Both the position numbers and the translations under genes were made by a program. The notes beneath the pieces were generated by a model, which saw nothing but the letters and a program-made list of their open reading frames with translations, searched no databases and was not told where the DNA came from. From Fidelibacterota bacterium (lineage in GTDB: Bacteria; Fidelibacterota; Marinisomatia; SCGC-AAA003-L08; JACNLC01), in the NCBI GenBank assembly GCA_014381725.1, contig JACNLC010000056.1, positions 1 through 64,000 on the forward strand: a DNA stretch of 64,000 nucleotides. The letters are read 5' to 3'. This document shows, piece by piece, positions 4,889 to 48,958 of the stretch; position 1 is the stretch's first letter; each line of letters begins with the position of its first letter.

Positions 4889-5492
4889 TAGAAACTCCAT
4901 GTTTGATATAGTTTTTCACTTGTGATTTTAACTCTTTCATAGTTGGTAGTTTTTCTCCAGTAATTTCTGCTACATTTCCCCAAATATTTGATGTCATAAA
5001 AGGAAATATTATTGTCCCGATAATCATTGAATATTGTATGATATTAATTTTTGAAGATTGATTTTGATACTTGTTTAATTTCGATAAAAGTGGTGTAATT
5101 CTTTCTGAAATTATTTCGGATATAATTTGCCCACCATTCGCTTGTTCCCGAGCAATAAGTCTTGGAAAAATATCTCGTTTTTTAATCAATACAGAAAAAT
5201 ATGAATCAACAATGACATCAATTAATTCGTTAATTGATAGATTTTCTGAAATAGCTTTGATTATTGTTTCAAAAATAGGACCTGCATTTTGTTCAATAAC
5301 TGCACGATACAAACCAGTTTTATTGGTAAAATAGTAATAAATTAGATTTTTGTTGATATTGATTTCTCCTGCGATATCGCGAGTGGTTGTTGCAGAGAAT
5401 CCCTTTTCAGCAAAGAGCTGTTCAGCCGAAGCTAAAATCAACTTTTTAATTTCATTATCAGCATTTCTTTCAGATTTTTTTGGTCTAGCCAT
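4881..5492 (-). CDS. TetR/AcrR-family transcriptional regulator
   Basis: A 203-residue DNA-binding repressor. The N-terminal helix-turn-helix is complete, at about residues 15-60: LASAEQLFAEKGFSATT, then TTRDIAGEININKNLIYYYF with the usual Y-YYHF-like end. The C-terminal two-thirds is the variable ligand-binding and dimer domain. It is first in the operon, and its stop overlaps the MMPL start. Two TTGACC-N4-GGTCAA palindromes lie just upstream, so it very probably represses its own operon. There is no obvious Shine-Dalgarno sequence before the ATG at 5492. The inducer is unknown, most likely a compound the pumps export. Confidence 0.93.
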   Translation of the reverse strand: MARPKKSERNADNEIKKLILASAEQLFAEKGFSATTTRDIAGEININKNLIYYYFTNKTGLYRAVIEQNAGPIFETIIKAISENLSINELIDVIVDSYFSVLIKKRDIFPRLIAREQANGGQIISEIISERITPLLSKLNKYQNQSSKINIIQYSMIIGTIIFPFMTSNIWGNVAEITGEKLPTMKELKSQVKNYIKHGVSND

Positions 5493-36612: not shown

Positions 36613-38280
36613 TTATTTATTCTCATCATTAACAGATTGATTTTCCCATGTGATTTCTGCGTGGCAAGGAATCATTTCTTTCCCAAAATATGGATTTTTC
36701 ACTTTTCCTGATTTTTGCAACCAATAACCACCATCTGGGGCAGGGCAAAACCGTTCTTCAAATTCGAGATTGATTGATTTCTCTCGCACGATTTGTCGAA
36801 TAACTTCCGATATTTCACGGAATGAATTACGCAATTCGGAGATATTTTGATTCGGTCGCATCGTTGGCTCCATAATTGGTTCAACGCCCTTAACACCCAT
36901 CGTTAATCTGTGGATTCCCATCGTTGACATATAAGCAGAATCGAAATCATCAATAGCCAAATATTCTTGTAAAGAAAAATAGTGATGGAGAACTTCTGCT
37001 AGAAGTTTATCGGATATTGTAACTACTACCTTTTCATCGTCATTCATATCTCCACTCATCATTGATGGTTTTGCTTCGAGTTGCATTGCAGAATCAATTT
37101 TAAATGTTCCGTGAGAAACTACATTTTCACCTTCAGATAATCCATCTAAAATAATATATTCGTCTTGAATTCGGTGCCCAAGCGTTACTTCGCGAAGTTC
37201 AAAAACAGGCTCTTCAGTATTGGGTTTCATTACATATACAATTGCTCTTTCGCCTGTTTTCATTACCGCTGATGATGGAACAATTAGTGGATTTGCTGAT
37301 ATGTCATCATCATTCGATATTACTTCTCCTTTTGCATTGAGTCTAACCTGAACTTGAGCCGAAACAAACATCTCAGGTTTTAGTTGATTATTGCTGTTGT
37401 CCACATTAACTCTCACGGATACAGTTCTAGTTTTACTGTTCATCGTAGGATGTATAAATGAAACAAGTCCTTCAAATAAGTCTCCCGGATAAGCGTCAAC
37501 TAAAAAAGTAACATTTTGGTTGATTTGAATTAGTGAAATATCCGATTCGTGAACATCAATATTTAACCATAAATTTCTTAAATCAGAAACAGTTGCGATT
37601 GGTGAACCTGTTTTCACATAATCACCTTCAGCAATATTGAGCTCAACAACTGTTCCAGAAATTGGAGCTGTGATAGATATTGTTTGTAGAATTTTTCCGT
37701 TGCTCTTTATTTCGGATATTTGTTTACTTGAAATTCCAAGTAAACGGAGTTTTTCAGAAGTAATTGATTCCATCGCTGTTCCTACAGATAACAAATATTC
37801 TTGTTGAGCAGAAATAAGTTCAGGAGAATATATTTCCATTAATTTGTCATTGTTTGAAATTTCAACTCCAACAAAATCAATAAATAGTTTATCGATTCTT
37901 CCGTCAGTCCAAGCGGTGATACTATTTGTTTTAGTTTCGTCGAAACCTAATTTTCCGGAAAAACGAATATGTTTTTCAGCTACTTCACGAGATACCAGAG
38001 TTGTTCCGATTTCTGCTAATTTCATTGCAGATTTCGACAATTTCAGTTCTACTTCTGATACTGAATCATCCGAATCTAACGGGATCAAGTCCATAAAACA
38101 AATTGGGCATTGACCAAATTCCGGCAACTGAATTTGTGGATGCATTGAGCAGGTCCAAACCGTCGCTTTTTCTTCGGATTGATGTGTGTTGGCAGGATGA
38201 CCGGTTGAGCTTCCAATCCAATATCCAATACCAAGTGCAATTACAATCAAAATAATTATTATTTTATAATATTTCTTCAT
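36613..38280 (-). CDS. cusB: CusB-type periplasmic adaptor with N-terminal HMBD and C-terminal DUF3347-like domain
   Basis: A 555-residue membrane-fusion protein. It has an N-terminal anchor (IIIILIVIALGIGYWIG), then an HMBD module VWTCSMHPQIQLPEFGQCPICFMDLIP (residues 41-68). The adaptor core is WTDGRIDKLFIDFVGVEISN, ISAPISGTVVELNIAEGDYV, IATVSDLRNLWLNIDVHES. A C-terminal metal-related domain of about 130 residues ends in FCPAPDGGYWLQKSGKVKNP and GKEMIPCHAEI. It bridges CusA and the outer-membrane factor and hands metal to the pump. The extra end domains are common in FCB-group CusB proteins. Confidence 0.92.
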   Translation of the reverse strand: MKKYYKIIIILIVIALGIGYWIGSSTGHPANTHQSEEKATVWTCSMHPQIQLPEFGQCPICFMDLIPLDSDDSVSEVELKLSKSAMKLAEIGTTLVSREVAEKHIRFSGKLGFDETKTNSITAWTDGRIDKLFIDFVGVEISNNDKLMEIYSPELISAQQEYLLSVGTAMESITSEKLRLLGISSKQISEIKSNGKILQTISITAPISGTVVELNIAEGDYVKTGSPIATVSDLRNLWLNIDVHESDISLIQINQNVTFLVDAYPGDLFEGLVSFIHPTMNSKTRTVSVRVNVDNSNNQLKPEMFVSAQVQVRLNAKGEVISNDDDISANPLIVPSSAVMKTGERAIVYVMKPNTEEPVFELREVTLGHRIQDEYIILDGLSEGENVVSHGTFKIDSAMQLEAKPSMMSGDMNDDEKVVVTISDKLLAEVLHHYFSLQEYLAIDDFDSAYMSTMGIHRLTMGVKGVEPIMEPTMRPNQNISELRNSFREISEVIRQIVREKSINLEFEERFCPAPDGGYWLQKSGKVKNPYFGKEMIPCHAEITWENQSVNDENK

Positions 38281-38288
38281 AATACCTC

Positions 38289-39476
38289 CTAAAGTGTTTT
38301 CCCAATTAATTCATAAAACCGGGCTTTTGTTGTTTGAAAAATTTTGTGTAGAGATGCGTTTTCTAATTTGAGATTTAGCAAAATTAGAACGGCATCCATA
38401 AATCTGTCAAAATCAATATCATTTGACAAATAAGCAGTTTCAGAAACAGTAAACGATTGTTCAGCTTTTGGAATAAGTTCATTTTGATATAATAGAGTTT
38501 TTCTCTGCAAATTTTCCATTTCAAACAATAGTCGTTCTGATTGAGATTTTAATAATTCTTCTGTGTCAAAAACCAGATATTCCGTAGATGTTAATTCTGA
38601 TTTTGCAGATTGTTTCTTTGCCATATTTTTGCCAAACCATAAAGGGAGAGTTAACCCAAATCGAATATCGATTGGATTGTCTTCGACAGCACCATCCAAC
38701 ATAATATAATCGGCTCCTATTTTGAAATCCGGTAAGTAAGATAAATTTGCCAGATGCACTTTGGTTTTTGCAATATCTACCGATATTGACACCGTCTGCA
38801 ACTCGGGATTCTTTGCAAAATCCTTAAATTCAGGGATAGTCAATTCAATTTCATCAAAAACGATATCTCCGGGATTTTGTCCACCCAATAAAGATTTCAT
38901 TTCACGATATAGGATTATTTCTTCATTGACAATTGTAGCTAGATTATCTTCTTGTTTTAGAACTTCGAGTTGAATTTGTATAAGATTTGCGTGATTTACA
39001 GAAGCCGTTATATATTGTGTTGTTAGCACAGATTCCAAACGCTTGAGTATCACCAATAGATTTTCTGTGATTGAAGTTTCTGTCTGTAAATATCGAAGCT
39101 TTTCATAAACAGTGATGACTTCCCGTTGTATTTCCAATTGTGTTTTTTGTAAACTTACTTTTTCTTTTTCTGCACGCAATAACCCAATCTTCTTTTTTGA
39201 TGCCAACTTCCCGAATCCGGGAATTGATTGACTAATTCCAATTTTCCATTCTTGCGGACCGGTTTTAGTTTCAATGGGTGTAAGAAAATATCCTGCGGAC
39301 AGCGATGGGTCTGGCAGAGAACTCAATACTTTCGCTTCTGACTTTTGTTTGCTTACCAATTCCATTTTACTTTGTATTTTTAGGTTATTTTCAAACGCAA
39401 TTGATAATAATTTTTCTAAATTTGTTTCGTTCCCAATAAGTAGAGAACAATATATTAAAATTATAAAATACTTCAT
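38289..39476 (-). CDS. TolC-family outer-membrane factor of the Cus system
   Basis: A 395-residue outer-membrane efflux protein. I start it at 39476, where GAGGGAAAT precedes the ATG and a signal peptide (KYFIILIYCSLLIGNE) follows. The open frame from 39521 would add 15 residues with no export signal. Long amphipathic helices repeat twice, as in TolC/CusC: SLPDPSLSAGYFLTPIETKTG, ISQSIPGFGKLASKKKIG, and later LPDFKIGADYIM, IDIRFGLTLPLWFGKN. It is transcribed just before the adaptor and pump and forms the exit channel. Confidence 0.88.
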   Translation of the reverse strand: MKYFIILIYCSLLIGNETNLEKLLSIAFENNLKIQSKMELVSKQKSEAKVLSSLPDPSLSAGYFLTPIETKTGPQEWKIGISQSIPGFGKLASKKKIGLLRAEKEKVSLQKTQLEIQREVITVYEKLRYLQTETSITENLLVILKRLESVLTTQYITASVNHANLIQIQLEVLKQEDNLATIVNEEIILYREMKSLLGGQNPGDIVFDEIELTIPEFKDFAKNPELQTVSISVDIAKTKVHLANLSYLPDFKIGADYIMLDGAVEDNPIDIRFGLTLPLWFGKNMAKKQSAKSELTSTEYLVFDTEELLKSQSERLLFEMENLQRKTLLYQNELIPKAEQSFTVSETAYLSNDIDFDRFMDAVLILLNLKLENASLHKIFQTTKARFYELIGKTL

Positions 39477-39553
39477 ATTTCCCTCGTGGTTTATATACAA
39501 AAAACCTAATTCCGGATACAAAACCCCCGGACTAAAAACAGGAAATTAGAAGT

Positions 39554-39910
39554 CTAAATTAGAAGAGGATTACTTGTATTTGGAGGGATTTTATATTTAT
39601 GCCGGCTATAATCTCTTGGCATAACTCGTGAAATTAAAATTGGCACAAAATTACAATCCAGATTAATAATTTCAGTTTGTTTTTCAATCTTATTAATTTG
39701 AGCTACAGCTGGATGTTGGACTCCGTCGAAATCCGTTTTGTTGCATTTGAATTTCATATTGCATTGGCATCCTTTTTTGTCCATCATGCAACAAGATTTC
39801 ATCCCTTTTGTTTTAGAGAATGGTTTGCAACATTTCTCGAAGCTGACATGAGCTCCGAGATTTAGAGCCAACGAAAATGATACTATTGTTAATAATAATC
39901 TCACACCCAA
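39554..39910 (-). CDS. Small exported Cys/Met-rich protein at the head of the Cus cluster
   Basis: A 118-residue protein with a signal peptide (LLLTIVSFSLALNLGAH), then a dense Cys/Met region EKCCKPFSKTKGMKSCCMMD, KKGCQCNMKFKC, which has eight Cys within about 30 residues. The last 50 residues are plain and may be disordered. It is the first gene on the strand before the OMF, adaptor and pump. A periplasmic copper-binding or copper-sensing role is inferred from composition and place. I recognise no family. Confidence 0.7.
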   Translation of the reverse strand: MGVRLLLTIVSFSLALNLGAHVSFEKCCKPFSKTKGMKSCCMMDKKGCQCNMKFKCNKTDFDGVQHPAVAQINKIEKQTEIINLDCNFVPILISRVMPRDYSRHKYKIPPNTSNPLLI

Positions 39911-43406: not shown

Positions 43407-43499
43407 TTATGCTCATTTTATTATGATGTAAAATTACATTCATTAAATAGATGTTTCAAAACTTACTCTATCAGACGATAAAATTAGCATCAAGTTCCA

Positions 43500-43660
43500 T
43501 ATAAAAAAAGAGCCCCAAAACTGGAGCTCTTTTAATTTTCAGGTTTATTTGAAGGAGGAAACCTGAAGTGTACCAAATTCACCTTGAAGGAGGAGGAGAT
43601 AAGGGAAGGGGTTGGCACAAACCCTTTATAAATCTATCTATTTCAAAAACCTTTTCCTGC
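43500..43660 (-). ncRNA. Candidate small RNA with repeated anti-Shine-Dalgarno motifs
   Basis: The 346-base interval 43407-43752 has no ORF but has all parts of a small RNA gene on the minus strand: activator box (43714-43734), TATTATTATA (43670-43661), then about 155 bases ending in a strong terminator. The transcript would hold a 7-bp hairpin AAGGGTT/AACCCCTT and an open C-rich stretch UCCUCCUCCUUCAAGG. It also has a perfect 7-bp hairpin CAGGUUU/AAACCUG with UCCUCCUUC in its loop. UCCUCCUUCAA thus occurs twice, once unpaired and once in a loop, and is complementary to AAGGAGGA. This predicts base-pairing with ribosome-binding sites. The start site is estimated. Confidence 0.72.
43504..43533 (-). 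terminator. Intrinsic terminator of the candidate sRNA
   Basis: On the minus strand AAAAGAGC, a TCC/GGG inner stem and GCTCTTTT form a hairpin around AGTTTT, followed by TTT in a run of seven T. The opposite side is weaker (TTTTAATTTT), so the main direction is minus. Confidence 0.9.
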
Positions 43661-43734
43661 TATAATAATACATTTATTAATATTATCAAAAAATAAGATA
43701 AAAGCCGATTGTATTGTAGGGAAAAATCTTACAA
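43661..43734 (-). promoter_or_regulatory. GacA-like box and promoter of the sRNA
   Basis: TTGTAGGG (43714-43721) and TCTTACAA (43727-43734) flank AAAAA. Here the repeat extends outward to a perfect 10-bp arm pair (TTGTATTGTA, 43709-43718, and TACAATACAA, 43730-43739). Reading on the minus strand, 43 bases separate the box from TATTATTATA. CTTATTTT begins 17 bases after the box. The half-site TGTAAGA resembles the known GacA/UvrY upstream site TGTAAG-N6-CTTACA. A matching promoter is at 44744-44817. Confidence 0.75.
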
Positions 43735-43752
43735 TACAAAGAATGACTTTCA

Positions 43753-44253
43753 TCAAACTAATGCAGATTGAAGATAATTGTTGTGTTTAATATTTGTTTG
43801 TTGATAGACAATCTGTGGTACAACATAAAAAATATCAGGCATTGATAAGCGAAAAAAACACCACTTTTTTCGCGACGGGAATTTATTCTTTATTGATTTA
43901 TCTAGCAGATATTGACAAGTTTCTACAACTCTATAAATTTCTTGAGACAAACCATTAGAATTCACTTTTATAACATTTCCATCAATATCAATATTTTGTA
44001 AGTTATTGTTTGTCATTAATATAATGATAGTATTTGGGCAAGATGATTTTATTCTACGGATTGCTGAGATGCACTCATATCCGCAGAAGTCGTAATTTAA
44101 CACCAATAAATTTGCATCGTGTTGGATAACAGTCTTCAATACTTTTTCAGGTTTGATAATTTCGCTAATTATTGAAACACCATCAAATGGTAATAACATT
44201 GCTGACAATTTTCTACTAATACATATAGATTCTTCGGCGATGACTACTTTCAT
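43753..44253 (-). CDS. Receiver-domain protein lacking the phospho-acceptor (pseudo-receiver)
   Basis: A 166-residue protein with a receiver-like N-terminal domain: KVVIAEESICISRKLSAML, then ANLLVLNYDFCGYECISAI, then NTIIILMTNN. The residue that should be the phosphorylated Asp (LLDYDMP in true receivers) is Asn (LNYD), and the acid pocket is EE. The switch-Lys region is also degenerate. A C-terminal tail of about 45 residues (KNKFPSRKKWCFFRLSM) has no recognised domain. Its start overlaps the previous pseudo-receiver by one base. It probably acts by binding a partner rather than by phosphorylation. Confidence 0.75.
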   Translation of the reverse strand: MKVVIAEESICISRKLSAMLLPFDGVSIISEIIKPEKVLKTVIQHDANLLVLNYDFCGYECISAIRRIKSSCPNTIIILMTNNNLQNIDIDGNVIKVNSNGLSQEIYRVVETCQYLLDKSIKNKFPSRKKWCFFRLSMPDIFYVVPQIVYQQTNIKHNNYLQSALV

Positions 44254-44636
44254 TATATTTCCTTTTTAGCTTTATCTTTGTAAAATAATTCTTTACAAAC
44301 ATCTATAACTTTGTCAAATTCTGTATATTTGTCAAAAAAGTGAATTATCCCCAACTGCTTACATTCTTCTTTCATTTGTTGATAAGGATAACTTGAAAGA
44401 ATGATTACCCGAGTGTCAGGAGTTATTTTGTTAATTAAATTCATTTTATCAATACATTCTTCAACGGACATTTTAATACCGATAACAATAATATCCGGTT
44501 TTGTTTTGAGAATTGTTTCACAATGCTTTCTAGTAGAATTCACAAGCTGGGTTACTTCTATTTTCCCAATTGAGAGTAGCATTTCTGCTAATCTTTCGCG
44601 TATAACTTTTGATTCTTCTGAAATTATTACATTCAT
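44253..44636 (-). CDS. Receiver-domain protein with Gly at the phospho-acceptor (pseudo-receiver)
   Basis: A 127-residue single receiver domain: NVIISEESKVIRERLAEML, KPDIIVIGIKMSVEECIDKM, DTRVIILSSYPYQQMKEEC, HFFDKYTEFDKVI. The phospho-acceptor position has Gly (VIGIKMS in place of LLDIxMP) although the switch Ser and Lys are kept. I prefer the ATG at 44636, which matches the start of the next gene (MKVVIAEES); one at 44648 is also possible. It lies behind the GacA-like box at 44797-44817 and in one operon with the second pseudo-receiver. Confidence 0.75.
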   Translation of the reverse strand: MNVIISEESKVIRERLAEMLLSIGKIEVTQLVNSTRKHCETILKTKPDIIVIGIKMSVEECIDKMNLINKITPDTRVIILSSYPYQQMKEECKQLGIIHFFDKYTEFDKVIDVCKELFYKDKAKKEI

Positions 44637-44662
44637 TATTCGTTCCATTACTAAATAATTTT

Positions 44663-44712
44663 AGAGTCCTTTATAATACTAACCATTTTATTGGTTTCTC
44701 AAAGGATTTCTT
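44663..44712 (-). promoter_or_regulatory. Structured leader element, copy A
   Basis: In the leader of the pseudo-receiver operon, outer stem TCCTTT/AAAGGA (44701-44706 with 44667-44672) encloses an inner hairpin AACCA/TGGTT. The plus-strand sequence TGGTTTCTCAAAGGATT (44692-44708) is identical over 17 bases to 49151-49167, where it sits in a comparable double-stem fold. It may be a regulatory RNA element. Confidence 0.5.
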
Positions 44713-44743
44713 CTATAATCGACTATATCTCCGTGTATTCTAT

Positions 44744-44817
44744 GCTAATAATAATTGATTTTCAAGAAGTACAAAATAAGTTGGAAACGGAATATTTTGT
44801 AGGGGTTTGTCTTACAA
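44744..44817 (-). promoter_or_regulatory. GacA-like box and promoter of the pseudo-receiver operon
   Basis: TTGTAGGG (44797-44804) and TCTTACAA (44810-44817) flank GTTTG. On the minus strand 43 bases follow the box before TATTATTA at 44753, and CTTATTTT begins 17 bases after the box, exactly as at the sRNA promoter. A start near 44740 gives a leader of about 100 bases. It lies 71 bases past the stop of the GacA-like regulator gene. Confidence 0.75.
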
Positions 44818-44888: not shown

Positions 44889-45524
44889 TTACTCAACTAA
44901 AGAATTTGATATAGCGTAGTAAGTCATTTCAGCATTAGTTTTAATGTTCATTTTCTCCAAAATCCGAGATCTATAAGTGCTGATTGTTTTAACACTGAGA
45001 AATAGTTGCGATGCAATTTCACTAATTGTTTTTCCTGATGCAATCAAACACAAGACTTCATATTCTCTATCAGATAGCAATTCGTGGGGTGCTTTGTTGG
45101 AATCTTGACCAATATCTTCTGCTAATATTTCTGCTAAATGTGGAGAAATAAATTTTCCACCATCATTTACTCTACGGATTGCCTTAACAAGCAAATCGGA
45201 AGCACCATCTTTTGTTACATAACCCGATGCTCCTGCTTTTAGGGTTCGTTTCGCATATTGATCTTCTGAGTGCATACTTAGCATCAATACAGGAATATTT
45301 TTATCAAAACTCTTTATTTCCTTTAAGACATCCAAGCCGTTTGGTCCGCCCGGCATTGAGATATCTAACAGAATTAGATCATATTTGTTTGTCCATACTT
45401 CTTTTAAAGCTTCTGAACCATTATTGGCTTCACCGGTAACTTGCATTCCCATAGTTTCATCAATTATTCTCTTTAGACCTTCGCGGACAATTGCGTGGTC
45501 ATCAACTAATAGTATTTTTATCAT
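44889..45524 (-). CDS. NarL/FixJ-family response regulator, GacA/UvrY-like
   Basis: A 211-residue response regulator. The receiver has LLVDDHAIVREGLKRII, phospho-acceptor in DLILLDISMPGGPNG near residue 57, and the switch Lys in GYVTKDGASD. The C-terminal LuxR-type helix-turn-helix is LSDREYEVLCLIASGKTISE, then QLFLSVKTISTYRSRILEKM, then AEMTYYAISNSLV. The last segment is especially like UvrY/GacA (VELTHLAIRHGL). The start at 45524 overlaps the kinase stop as ATGA; the open frame to 45611 is read-through into the kinase gene. The two matching boxes in the next intergenic regions are its likely targets. Confidence 0.93.
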   Translation of the reverse strand: MIKILLVDDHAIVREGLKRIIDETMGMQVTGEANNGSEALKEVWTNKYDLILLDISMPGGPNGLDVLKEIKSFDKNIPVLMLSMHSEDQYAKRTLKAGASGYVTKDGASDLLVKAIRRVNDGGKFISPHLAEILAEDIGQDSNKAPHELLSDREYEVLCLIASGKTISEIASQLFLSVKTISTYRSRILEKMNIKTNAEMTYYAISNSLVE

Positions 45525-48500
45525 TTTAGTTCCTTTTCGTTGTATGGAATTTCTACATGAATAAATGTACCAATATCCATTTTCCCGGAGATTGTAACAG
45601 TTCCACCCCAAATATTTGCTCTTTCTCTCATGCCAAGTAAACCTAATGATTTATGGTTGAAAATTATTTCTTCATCAATTCCGAGCCCGTTATCACTTAT
45701 ATCCAAAATTAATTTGTTAGTTTCCTTTGTGAGTTTAATTGACACTTCAGTTGCCTCAGAATGACGAGCTACATTTGTTAATGATTCCTGTAACATTCTA
45801 AACAGAGCAGTAGATCGTTTGGTGTCAATCCAGCTATCATCATCTGGTAGATGTAATTTACAATGGATTTCTGTTCGTTGAACATATTCTTTGATATGCC
45901 ATTCGATTGCCGCTATTAGTCCAAGGTCATCTAAAATACTTGGTCGAAGTTCTGAACTTATTCTCCTCACATCATTTATTGTTTGGTTTACAAGTTTTTC
46001 TAGAGAATCAAATTTGTTATAAACTGGAAGATTGTGGTTATCTGGTACTTTGGATTTAAGCCAAGCGAGGTCCATTTTCATTCCAGTTAAATTTTGTCCT
46101 AATTCATCGTGAATTTCTCGAGCAATATTTGTTCGTTCTTCTTCTTGAAGTGTTTGAAGTCGTGAAGAAAGTTTACGGAGTGCTTCCTCTGCACTCTTTC
46201 GTTTTGTTATATTATCAAAAAACCCAAATCCCCCATTTTCTTGACCTGATTTACTGTAAATTATTGCACTATTCAGTATTGTATAAATTTCTTCACCGTC
46301 TTTCTTTTCCAACACAACATCAAATCTTCGATGGCTAGCAATTGGATTTTTTTCAATTTCCAAATTCATTAAATTTCTTGATTTGTCTGTTACAAATTCT
46401 GTCAATCTTCTACCAATAATTTCTTCTCTGTTGAAATCAATCAAATCACAAAATGCGTTATTTACTTCACTAATTCTCTGATTAGAATCTACAAGATAAA
46501 AGCCTTGTGTTGTTAAATCAATGACTGTCCGGTATTTTTCTTCACTTAATCGAAGAGATTTTTCAATTCGTTTCAGATTTGAAATGTCCACAAAACTTTC
46601 AATTAAGCACTTTCGTCCTTTTATGGTTGCGGTAGTAACTGTTTTCAGTATTGGGATTTTCTTCCCATCAATATTCAGCAAAATCCTCTCAGAATTATCT
46701 ATTGCCTGACCCAAGTTAGATATAGGGCATTTTCCTCTTTCAGCTGGACAAATATATTCATGGCATACCGACCCAACGATTTTATCTTTTGGAGCACCAA
46801 TTAACTTTACTGCAGCAGAATTAATATCAACAACCGTATGATCTTTTTCATCAATTACAAAAATCCCTGCTTGAGCAGTATCAAAAATAGTTTGTAAGTG
46901 TTTTTCACTTTCACGAATAGCTTCATCATCTTTAATTTTTTGTGTAATGTCATTCCCTGTTGATACAAAATGTGTAATTTCACCATTTGCGTTTTTTAAT
47001 GGGGATATTGTTTTACCTTCATAATATAATTTGCCTGTTTTTGTTTTGTTGATCAAAATATTTTTGTATGTTTTACCGGAGAGAATAATATCCCACATTT
47101 CTTTGTAAAATTCTTGATTATGTTTTCCGGATTTTAGAATTCTAGTATTTTTACCTATAACTTCGTCGAATGAATAGCCGGTTACTTTTTCAAATGCTGG
47201 ATTAACATAAGTTATTAATCCTGATTTATCCGTAATTACAACATGAGAATTAGATTGTTGAGTAACTCTTGATAATTTTCGAAGTTCATCTTCTGTTTGT
47301 TGCCGTTCAAAAATTTCATTTTTTAACTCTATGGTTCGTTCTTCTACGAGATCTTCTAATCGAATTCGATACATTTCTAGTTCTTGTTCGTTTCTCTTCC
47401 TTTGTGTAATATCTCGACCGACACCTAATCTTCCGATAATTTTACCAAAAGAATCTGTTAAAGTACTTATTTTTAGTTCAAGATAAATAACAGTACCATC
47501 TTTGCATATAACAGCGGTTTCATAGGGCGGAACATGTTTTCCAGAAATTGCCTTTTTGAAATTTTCAACTGTTGTTTTAAGGTACTCAGGCACTATTAAA
47601 CCTGTGAAAGAGCGCCCAATAACTTCTTCGGATGAATATCCGGTTAGTTCTTCAGATTTAGGATTTGCGTAAGTAAATTTTCCTTCAACATCTATAGTGT
47701 AGATAATATCATCAATTGTTTCAACAAGAGTCTTATACTTTTGTTCACTATAATGTAATTCTGAAATCTTGTCTTCTACAAGTTCTTCTAAATGATTTCT
47801 GTGAAGTTCGAGATCCTTTTCAGTTTTTTCTCTTTGTGTAATATCTTTGATAATTCCGATAAAACCTGTTGGATTCCCTTCATTATCTAGAATAATTGAT
47901 GCACTAGATTCTCCCAAGAAAGTAGTTCCGTCCTTTCTTAGAAAAGTATATCTTACATCTATGATTTTACCGCTTTCAATTGCATTTAAAGCATCTTGAT
48001 TAATTTTTTCTCGATCTTCGGGAACAACATAAGAAAATGTTGTTTTCCCTTTGACATCATCTTTAGTATCAAGATTAAATAATTTTTGAGTTTGACGATT
48101 AACATACTTTATTTTTGCATCTAAATCGCTAACGACAATTGCGTCCGGAGACAGCTCAAACAAAGTACGGTACAATTCTTCTCTATCGAGTAGTTTTTTT
48201 TCAGCTAGCTTTTTGGAGGTTATATCTTGAGTTGTTCCGATGATTGCAATCGGAGTGCTATCTTTATCGTAAGTTACATTAGCTCTGCATCTCAGAAATC
48301 GCACCTCTTGCGAATCCTGTTTAATAAATCTACATTCATAGTCAATAGGTTCGTGATTTGCAATATTGTTATTAATTATCTGTCGGATATCATCTCTGTC
48401 TTCTGGGTGAATTATTTGAAAAAGAATATCATTCGAATACTCAAAAGTATCGGGCTTTACTCCCAATATCGCATAAGCTTCTTTAGACCAAACAACACTT

Positions 48501-48958
48501 TCAGTTTGCATATTGTACTCAAAACTACAAATATGTGTTAAATGCTGAGACTCATCAAGTAAAACTCGACTTTTTTCTAGTCTTTGTTGAGAAAGTTTTT
48601 GTTCTGTAATATTGCGAATAATTGAGATTACTTCTTTATTTTCAGTTGGAAGAAGTCGTGCTTCGAAGTATTTAGTTTCACCTGAAATTTGAAGTGAATA
48701 TTCGATCTGAGATAGTTTATTATTTCTTAATGAATCCTTAACAGCTTTCATTATTCTTGAAGATGTTGTGGATGGAAATATATCTTTTATTTTTTTATTT
48801 ATAAATTCTTCAGGTGGGAGATATAAATCTGCTATATTTCCAGCTCGGTAATCGAGAATCTTACCCTTTTTATCTAATCGAAAATATAAATCAGGTAATG
48901 CTTTGAAAATAATTTCAAGGTCAGATTGATGTTGATTATTATTGTTTTGCTTTTTCAT
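45521..48958 (-). CDS. Multi-PAS sensor histidine kinase (HisKA_3 type)
   Basis: A 1145-residue kinase with no membrane helix, so it is cytoplasmic. Seven PAS domains occur in series, starting near residues 12, 130, 262, 405, 560, 690 and 815. Several end in the usual ITQRK or ITEQK linker, and coiled segments come before PAS4 and PAS5. PAS6 contains CHEYICPAERGKCP, a Cys cluster that may bind metal or sense redox state. The kinase core is a NarX/DegS-type dimer helix, NIAREIHDELGQNLTGMKMD (phospho-His), then an ATPase with NGLGIDEEI and GLLGMRERA. It is coupled to the regulator gene by ATGA, giving a clear cognate pair. The signal is unknown. Confidence 0.93.
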   Translation of the reverse strand: MKKQNNNNQHQSDLEIIFKALPDLYFRLDKKGKILDYRAGNIADLYLPPEEFINKKIKDIFPSTTSSRIMKAVKDSLRNNKLSQIEYSLQISGETKYFEARLLPTENKEVISIIRNITEQKLSQQRLEKSRVLLDESQHLTHICSFEYNMQTESVVWSKEAYAILGVKPDTFEYSNDILFQIIHPEDRDDIRQIINNNIANHEPIDYECRFIKQDSQEVRFLRCRANVTYDKDSTPIAIIGTTQDITSKKLAEKKLLDREELYRTLFELSPDAIVVSDLDAKIKYVNRQTQKLFNLDTKDDVKGKTTFSYVVPEDREKINQDALNAIESGKIIDVRYTFLRKDGTTFLGESSASIILDNEGNPTGFIGIIKDITQREKTEKDLELHRNHLEELVEDKISELHYSEQKYKTLVETIDDIIYTIDVEGKFTYANPKSEELTGYSSEEVIGRSFTGLIVPEYLKTTVENFKKAISGKHVPPYETAVICKDGTVIYLELKISTLTDSFGKIIGRLGVGRDITQRKRNEQELEMYRIRLEDLVEERTIELKNEIFERQQTEDELRKLSRVTQQSNSHVVITDKSGLITYVNPAFEKVTGYSFDEVIGKNTRILKSGKHNQEFYKEMWDIILSGKTYKNILINKTKTGKLYYEGKTISPLKNANGEITHFVSTGNDITQKIKDDEAIRESEKHLQTIFDTAQAGIFVIDEKDHTVVDINSAAVKLIGAPKDKIVGSVCHEYICPAERGKCPISNLGQAIDNSERILLNIDGKKIPILKTVTTATIKGRKCLIESFVDISNLKRIEKSLRLSEEKYRTVIDLTTQGFYLVDSNQRISEVNNAFCDLIDFNREEIIGRRLTEFVTDKSRNLMNLEIEKNPIASHRRFDVVLEKKDGEEIYTILNSAIIYSKSGQENGGFGFFDNITKRKSAEEALRKLSSRLQTLQEEERTNIAREIHDELGQNLTGMKMDLAWLKSKVPDNHNLPVYNKFDSLEKLVNQTINDVRRISSELRPSILDDLGLIAAIEWHIKEYVQRTEIHCKLHLPDDDSWIDTKRSTALFRMLQESLTNVARHSEATEVSIKLTKETNKLILDISDNGLGIDEEIIFNHKSLGLLGMRERANIWGGTVTISGKMDIGTFIHVEIPYNEKELK

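Follow-up and report, generated by a model that had tools for sequence, protein, structure and literature searches.

Comparative sequence evidence for a UvrY/GacA-like regulator that likely drives sibling CCUCC-type small RNAs and a degenerate receiver operon in a marine bacterium without detectable CsrA

The window analyzed here, a stretch of 64,000 nucleotides, belongs to the genome (G000) of an uncultured marine bacterium of the Neomarinimicrobiota, which comprises 2.18 Mb in 88 contigs and is 98% complete. All of the evidence is sequence comparison, mostly of draft metagenome assemblies. The comparisons drew on 245 genomes of the phylum and on a set of 80 relatives of the regulator from GTDB genomes of many phyla. 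The genes and features of the locus are as follows:

45521..48958, minus strand: multi-PAS histidine kinase of the HisKA_3 type; its gene overlaps that of the regulator, whose partner kinase it presumably is
44889..45524, minus strand: NarL-family response regulator, UvrY/GacA-like (Pfam Response_reg and GerE); presumed to bind the boxes
44797..44817, minus strand: box 2 (minus-strand sequence TTGTAAGACAAACCCCTACAA), upstream of the receiver operon and just downstream of the regulator gene
44773..44780, minus strand: CTTATTTT element, starting at base 17 after box 2
44746..44753, minus strand: promoter of the receiver operon, -10 region (TATTATTA), exactly 43 bases after box 2
44253..44648, minus strand: REC1, a stand-alone receiver (Pfam Response_reg, 9.1e-10)
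43753..44253, minus strand: REC2, a degenerate receiver without a Pfam match, phospho-Asp replaced by Asn
43714..43734, minus strand: box 1 (minus-strand sequence TTGTAAGATTTTTCCCTACAA), upstream of sRNA1 and among the top three matrix sites
43690..43697, minus strand: CTTATTTT element, starting at base 17 after box 1
43663..43670, minus strand: promoter of sRNA1, -10 region (TATTATTA), 43 bp downstream of box 1
43499..43655 (ends approximate), minus strand: sRNA1, predicted from promoter and terminator anatomy, fold and exposed motifs (~155 nt)
43582..43598, minus strand: CUCCUCCUCCUUCAAGG, exposed anti-SD-like motif of sRNA1, with CUCCUUCUUCAAGG as its counterpart in sRNA2
43540..43565, minus strand: hairpin CAGGUUU-CCUCCUUCAAAU-AAACCUG with CCUCC in its loop, read from the sequence and present in the centroid fold
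43506..43533, minus strand: intrinsic terminator of sRNA1

Compared with seven E. coli NarL-type regulators, the response regulator scored 163 bits with UvrY and at most 108 with the other six, and its DNA-binding domain (HTH) also matched UvrY best. On this similarity we assign the regulator to the UvrY/GacA type, orthology not being proven. A profile search of the adjacent kinase found PAS repeats, HisKA_3 and HATPase only, with no tripartite hybrid arrangement (HisKA-REC-HPt). Elsewhere in the window, positions 36613-39910 (minus strand) encode membrane-fusion-like, outer-membrane-factor-like and small Cys-rich proteins and resemble a metal efflux system.

The two boxes are copies of a 21-bp palindrome, TTGTAGGG-N5-TCTTACAA, found without mismatch at 43714-43734 and 44797-44817. 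The preliminary description had claimed two identical 21-bp boxes with identical spacing, CTTATTTT at base 17 and 43 bases to TATTATTA; this held at both promoters with exact coordinates, on the minus strand, which is the reading strand of both promoters and that of the genes here. Its remark that no third copy was noticed held for the window, where a third exact copy is absent; a third box exists on another contig, beyond the sequence available to it. For the start sites it expected after the -10 there is no proof, these being predicted only. A further candidate box at 44278-44298 was rejected, as it has three mismatches, is at chance level (0.78 expected) and shows no promoter at the right distance. 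This palindrome, TTGTAAAGAATTATTTTACAA, is found where REC1 ends, with 25 bp left to the start of REC2, and is probably a chance occurrence.

The similarity of the two promoters extends 3' of the boxes, where 32 of 58 positions are identical, including two 8-base runs in register (P = 0.0003 in 20,000 shuffles; two such runs occurred in 0 shuffles), and the shared positions are concentrated in the CTTATTTT and TATTATTA runs. The identical spacing could stem from a recent duplication of one promoter, and the 32/58 identity speaks for this. However, identity 5' of the boxes is 17/50, near background. Additionally, the -10 begins 42-45 bases from the box at several promoters which share little else, namely in G132 (with a perfect TATAAT), G009, genomes of genus g6 and a Geobacter locus. 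Because this spacing is kept at otherwise unrelated promoters, it looks like a constraint rather than a duplication relic, and we regard recent duplication as highly improbable.

We scanned all 2.18 Mb of the genome for sequence patterns. The relaxed palindrome TTGTANGN7CNTACAA occurs at three sites in the whole genome, while the reversed-pattern control gave 0. The third box (G000:C60:4773-4793) is on a different contig and precedes a second predicted small RNA of the same type, again with a terminator. When up to three mismatches were allowed, 28 rows were obtained genome-wide, no more than in controls. A half-site weight matrix, trained only on boxes beside orthologous regulators of other genomes, was run over 1.43 Mb (~66% of the genome) and ranked the same three sites at the top, with scores of 25.1, 21.3 and 21.3 and the next site at 16.5; a caveat is that single sites at control spacings score up to 20.7.

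Conservation of the box beside the regulator is shown by comparison. Close relatives of the regulator occur in 17 other genomes of the class, several of which carry TGTARG-N6/7-CYTACA right beside the regulator gene, and box 2 occupies the position that boxes take beside orthologous regulators in other genomes. Among the 80 GTDB relatives, the 63 kb next to the genes hold 15 copies of the palindrome and the other 567 kb hold 14, an approximately tenfold enrichment, and the middle of the palindrome there is often ACAAA, as in box 2. Regulator orthologues with the palindrome next to their gene occur across Neomarinimicrobiota and in several further phyla. A point against the reading is that in the majority of the 80 relatives no palindrome that fits the pattern lies next to the regulator gene.

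The palindrome might instead be the site of another regulator, lying near the response regulator by chance or shared history. In favor of this, a similar box precedes a 247-aa putative membrane-protein gene in g6, including genome G006, which has no regulator orthologue passing the cut-off. Against it stand the finding that across many phyla the box is about ten times enriched next to the regulator gene, the likeness to the published UvrY/GacA site and the finding that UvrY is the nearest E. coli relative, and we consider this alternative unlikely. The comparative evidence supports the box as the site of the UvrY/GacA-like regulator, with a tiny regulon of receiver genes and sRNA, while binding remains unproven.

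Several further loci carry related sites. In genus g6 (L014-L019, from G008, G034, G011, G006, G031 and G033), a TTGTARG-N7-CYTACAA palindrome precedes the conserved gene for the 247-aa putative membrane protein (MNPHLSMRSGNPALS..) in 5/6 loci, with a different gene behind it at L018; this membrane-protein gene may be a second target, either of this regulator or of a related one. Behind a relative of the regulator with 67% identity in G170 (L142, ~5345-5480) come a degenerate box, TTGCAGGGGGAATGCTTACAT, and a short hairpin RNA that has a terminator and lacks CCUCC. In G016 (L041 4350-4640 and L144 4820-5044), several TGTAGG/CCTACA palindromes and half-sites lie near two copies of a regulator-kinase pair; the repeated sites could represent arrays for cooperative binding, a possibility inferred from sequence alone.

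Measured against these results, the remaining claims of the preliminary description fared as follows. That a GacA/UvrY-like regulator lies between the sites and its kinase held, the kinase being of the multi-PAS HisKA_3 type. That this regulator acts on the boxes is backed by comparison, without proof of binding itself. The genome-wide motif scan it had asked for returned few copies, three in the genome rather than many unrelated ones. The comparison with the published GacA box needs correcting: the site here is TGTARG-N7-CYTACA (19 bp), the published one TGTAAG-N6-CTTACA (18 bp), and when the latter was tested, N7 was found at 3/3 G000 sites and N6 in genus g6 and G016. Lastly, a small regulon of two pseudo-receivers and an sRNA largely held and was incomplete, as there are two box-driven sRNA candidates, not one.

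The second candidate, sRNA2, is read from the minus strand of contig C60, where TAAAAT lies at base 45 after the third box and is followed by CUCCUUCUUCAAGG, a hairpin with GUCCUCCUC in its loop and a strong terminator; its promoter lacks both a good -35 and CTTATTTT. The anatomy of box, promoter, CCUCC motif and terminator is shown by comparison. A box-blind scan of 1.43 Mb for an intergenic CUCC-type motif followed by a terminator returned six sites, two of which are sRNA1 and sRNA2, an overlap with the boxes expected by chance at ~0.005. Of the other four, one looks like a tRNA gene, one like the end of a gene and two like intergenic sequence without notable features.

Against the proposed role of sRNA1 stand a fold no more stable than that of shuffled sequence (z = -0.5) and a second CCUCC whose unpaired share, when the full-length RNA is modelled, is only ~60%. 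In the MFE structure, other pairings rival its CAGGUUU-CCUCCUUC-AAACCUG hairpin. An Rfam search gave no family at gathering score for sRNA1 or the related RNAs (ar14, 26.2 versus 58.8 bits; ar15, 24.9 versus 40 bits), a DNA similarity search with the sRNA1 region returned only short, unconvincing matches elsewhere, and no mRNA stood out as a target when duplex energies were compared. sRNA1 (43655-43499, minus strand) also contains an open frame of ~28 codons with a GTG start after AAAGGG; no similar frame was seen in genus g6.

That CCUCC is exposed in loops suggests pairing with Shine-Dalgarno (SD) sequences. The 3' end of the 16S rRNA was not found in the assembly, and the anti-SD match is therefore inferred from Shine-Dalgarno usage: 53% of starts in G000 have at least 4 nt of the sequence, versus 22% of random positions. 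Because this genome uses SD sequences, anti-SD pairing is the simplest action for the CCUCC RNAs. This inference comes from sequence alone and rests on complementarity and accessibility only; silencing is untested.

Conservation of this anatomy in another family of the same order is shown by comparison. In G008, G011, G031 and G033, all of one genus (g6), a box lies downstream of the regulator gene, and behind it comes a promoter with TTGACA-N16 and a -10 that begins ~44 bases from the box (regulator identity to G000 is 63-64% in the two of the four orthologues aligned). The RNA there is ~75 nt long. It has a GUUAAC-stem hairpin, whose CCUUCCUCCUUC loop is unpaired with a probability of 1.00, and a terminator in which an A-U to G-C exchange leaves the stem paired. 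A composite pattern was found at only these four loci in the 245 genomes of the phylum; an earlier version with a box-to-motif distance of 85-115 missed this genus because the RNA there is shorter. In this sample, CCUCC RNAs were seen only in Neomarinimicrobiota.

These short terminated transcripts could also be 5' leaders, that is attenuators or leader peptides, of downstream genes. A same-strand gene does follow each terminator by ~100 nt (a TPR gene after sRNA1, AsnA after sRNA2), sRNA1 carries the 28-codon GTG frame after AAAGGG, and there is a weak, sub-threshold Rfam match to the Phe leader. However, the downstream genes differ (a TPR protein, AsnA and, in the other genus, a 127-aa putative lipoprotein), no antiterminator was seen, and in the ~75-nt RNA of that genus no start codon is apparent ahead of the terminator. 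We therefore favor trans-acting RNAs and judge leaders improbable.

The box-linked operon beside the regulator gene encodes the two receivers. In REC1 the phospho-Asp is replaced by Gly, the acidic pair is EE, and the Lys is kept. REC2 is similar to REC1 at 1.3e-6 and was modelled as a receiver (AlphaFold2/Foldseek), its best PDB matches being receiver domains; the model is of moderate overall confidence, with the C-terminal 40 residues below pLDDT 50. The phospho-acceptor Asp is kept in 9/10 stand-alone receivers downstream of related regulators and absent from REC1 and REC2. The arrangement of regulator, box and receiver looks older and wider than the CCUCC RNAs.

Absence of CsrA is likewise a result of comparison. 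A search for CsrA (PF02599) scored over the cut-off in 14/41 members of the order but did not find the protein in G000 (98% complete) or any of six g6 genomes; it is present in family f4 and in some f1 and f5 genomes. Since G000 and g6 lack CsrA, a role of the RNAs as CsrA sponges is excluded. The opposite strand carries GGAGG motifs, and a reading of it as a CsrA sponge was rejected: CsrA is absent, and the terminator and box-spaced promoter are on the minus strand. A further alternative is that the box controls the promoters and the RNAs sequester an unknown protein recognizing CU-rich loops. Such titration, which would be Csr/Rsm-like with CsrA missing, agrees with the presence of two sibling RNAs per genome and with the way similar motifs recur, exposed, in short hairpins. 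However, no candidate protein was identified, CCUCCUUC is complementary to the SD used by this genome, and NfeR1, an RNA with a CCUCC-type loop motif, acts by pairing (PMC10746234). We hold protein titration to be doubtful.

The reading we prefer, and think likely, is that the UvrY/GacA-like regulator drives the sibling anti-SD RNAs and the degenerate receiver operon, with transcription, binding and targets all inferred. The multi-PAS kinase (45521-48958), encoded just upstream, would phosphorylate the regulator (44889-45524), which would then bind the 21-bp palindrome centered near -66 and activate three sigma-70-type promoters, those of the receiver operon, sRNA1 (~43655-43499, minus strand) and sRNA2 on the other contig; DNA binding and activation are inferred only. 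The predicted sibling RNAs, which expose CUCCU/CCUCC and end in intrinsic terminators, would pair in trans with the Shine-Dalgarno sequences of selected mRNAs and block ribosome binding, and the degenerate receivers may provide feedback or titration, both steps again being inferred. A bolder reading is that a Gac-type output has been rewired without CsrA, the UvrY/GacA-like regulator retaining its box and its role as driver of sibling sRNAs, base pairing replacing protein titration and the receiver operon serving as feedback; we see as much reason to doubt as to accept it.

The proposed circuit couples a Gac-type regulator and its box with sibling RNAs of the anti-SD kind, and does so in genomes that lack CsrA. 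In the literature searched, we found no described sRNA circuit in Neomarinimicrobiota. The system suggests that one regulator with several redundant sRNAs is a recurring design in which the RNA output is exchangeable. Additionally, the recurrence of the box next to the regulator gene across many phyla provides a testable predicted site for a large NarL-family group, for which the literature searched held no described site.

In regulator and box, the closest known systems are BarA/UvrY and GacS/GacA with their CsrB/RsmY-type RNAs (PMC4682653, PMC3171408). The UvrY/GacA site is an 18-nt palindrome, TGTAAGN6CTTACA (PMC4682653, PMC3171408), and in both cases a TGTARG..CYTACA palindrome lies upstream of several sRNA genes, the sRNAs being among few targets. 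Unlike those systems, this one has no CsrA, carries CCUCC rather than GGA, has a PAS-HisKA_3 kinase rather than a hybrid kinase and has an N7 spacer at three sites. For membership in the Gac/Bar-Csr/Rsm group, the criterion of a UvrY/GacA-type regulator is met. Repeated GGA motifs in sRNA loops are not found, the exposed motifs being CUCCU/CCUCC, and neither the presence of CsrA nor a hybrid kinase (HisKA-REC-HPt) is met. On the tests made, the G000 system is not a Gac/Csr pathway.

By motif, the closest RNA type is alpha-r14/NfeR1 of rhizobia (PMC10746234, Rfam RF02344), which shares hairpin RNAs, exposed CCUCCUCCC anti-SD motifs and redundant action at ribosome-binding sites; it differs in being regulated by LsrB and NtrC rather than by a UvrY-like regulator, and the Rfam gathering thresholds of ar14 and ar15 are not met. 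In logic, the closest circuit is CiaRH-csRNA of streptococci, in which CiaR drives several CCUCCU-loop csRNAs that act additively (PMC4438229, PMC4507080). There, as is proposed here, a response regulator drives sibling short RNAs with a CCUCCU loop and a terminator, along with a few other promoters, and the csRNA criterion of CCUCCU in a loop plus an intrinsic terminator is met. The box type differs, since the CiaR direct repeat NTTAAG-N5-TTTAAG is replaced here by the inverted repeat TTGTARG-N7-CYTACAA. The streptococcal csRNAs also have an extra anti-start-codon stretch, come from a different phylum and show no sequence homology that we could see. On the tests made, the system is a member of none of these types and combines the front end of one with the back end of another.
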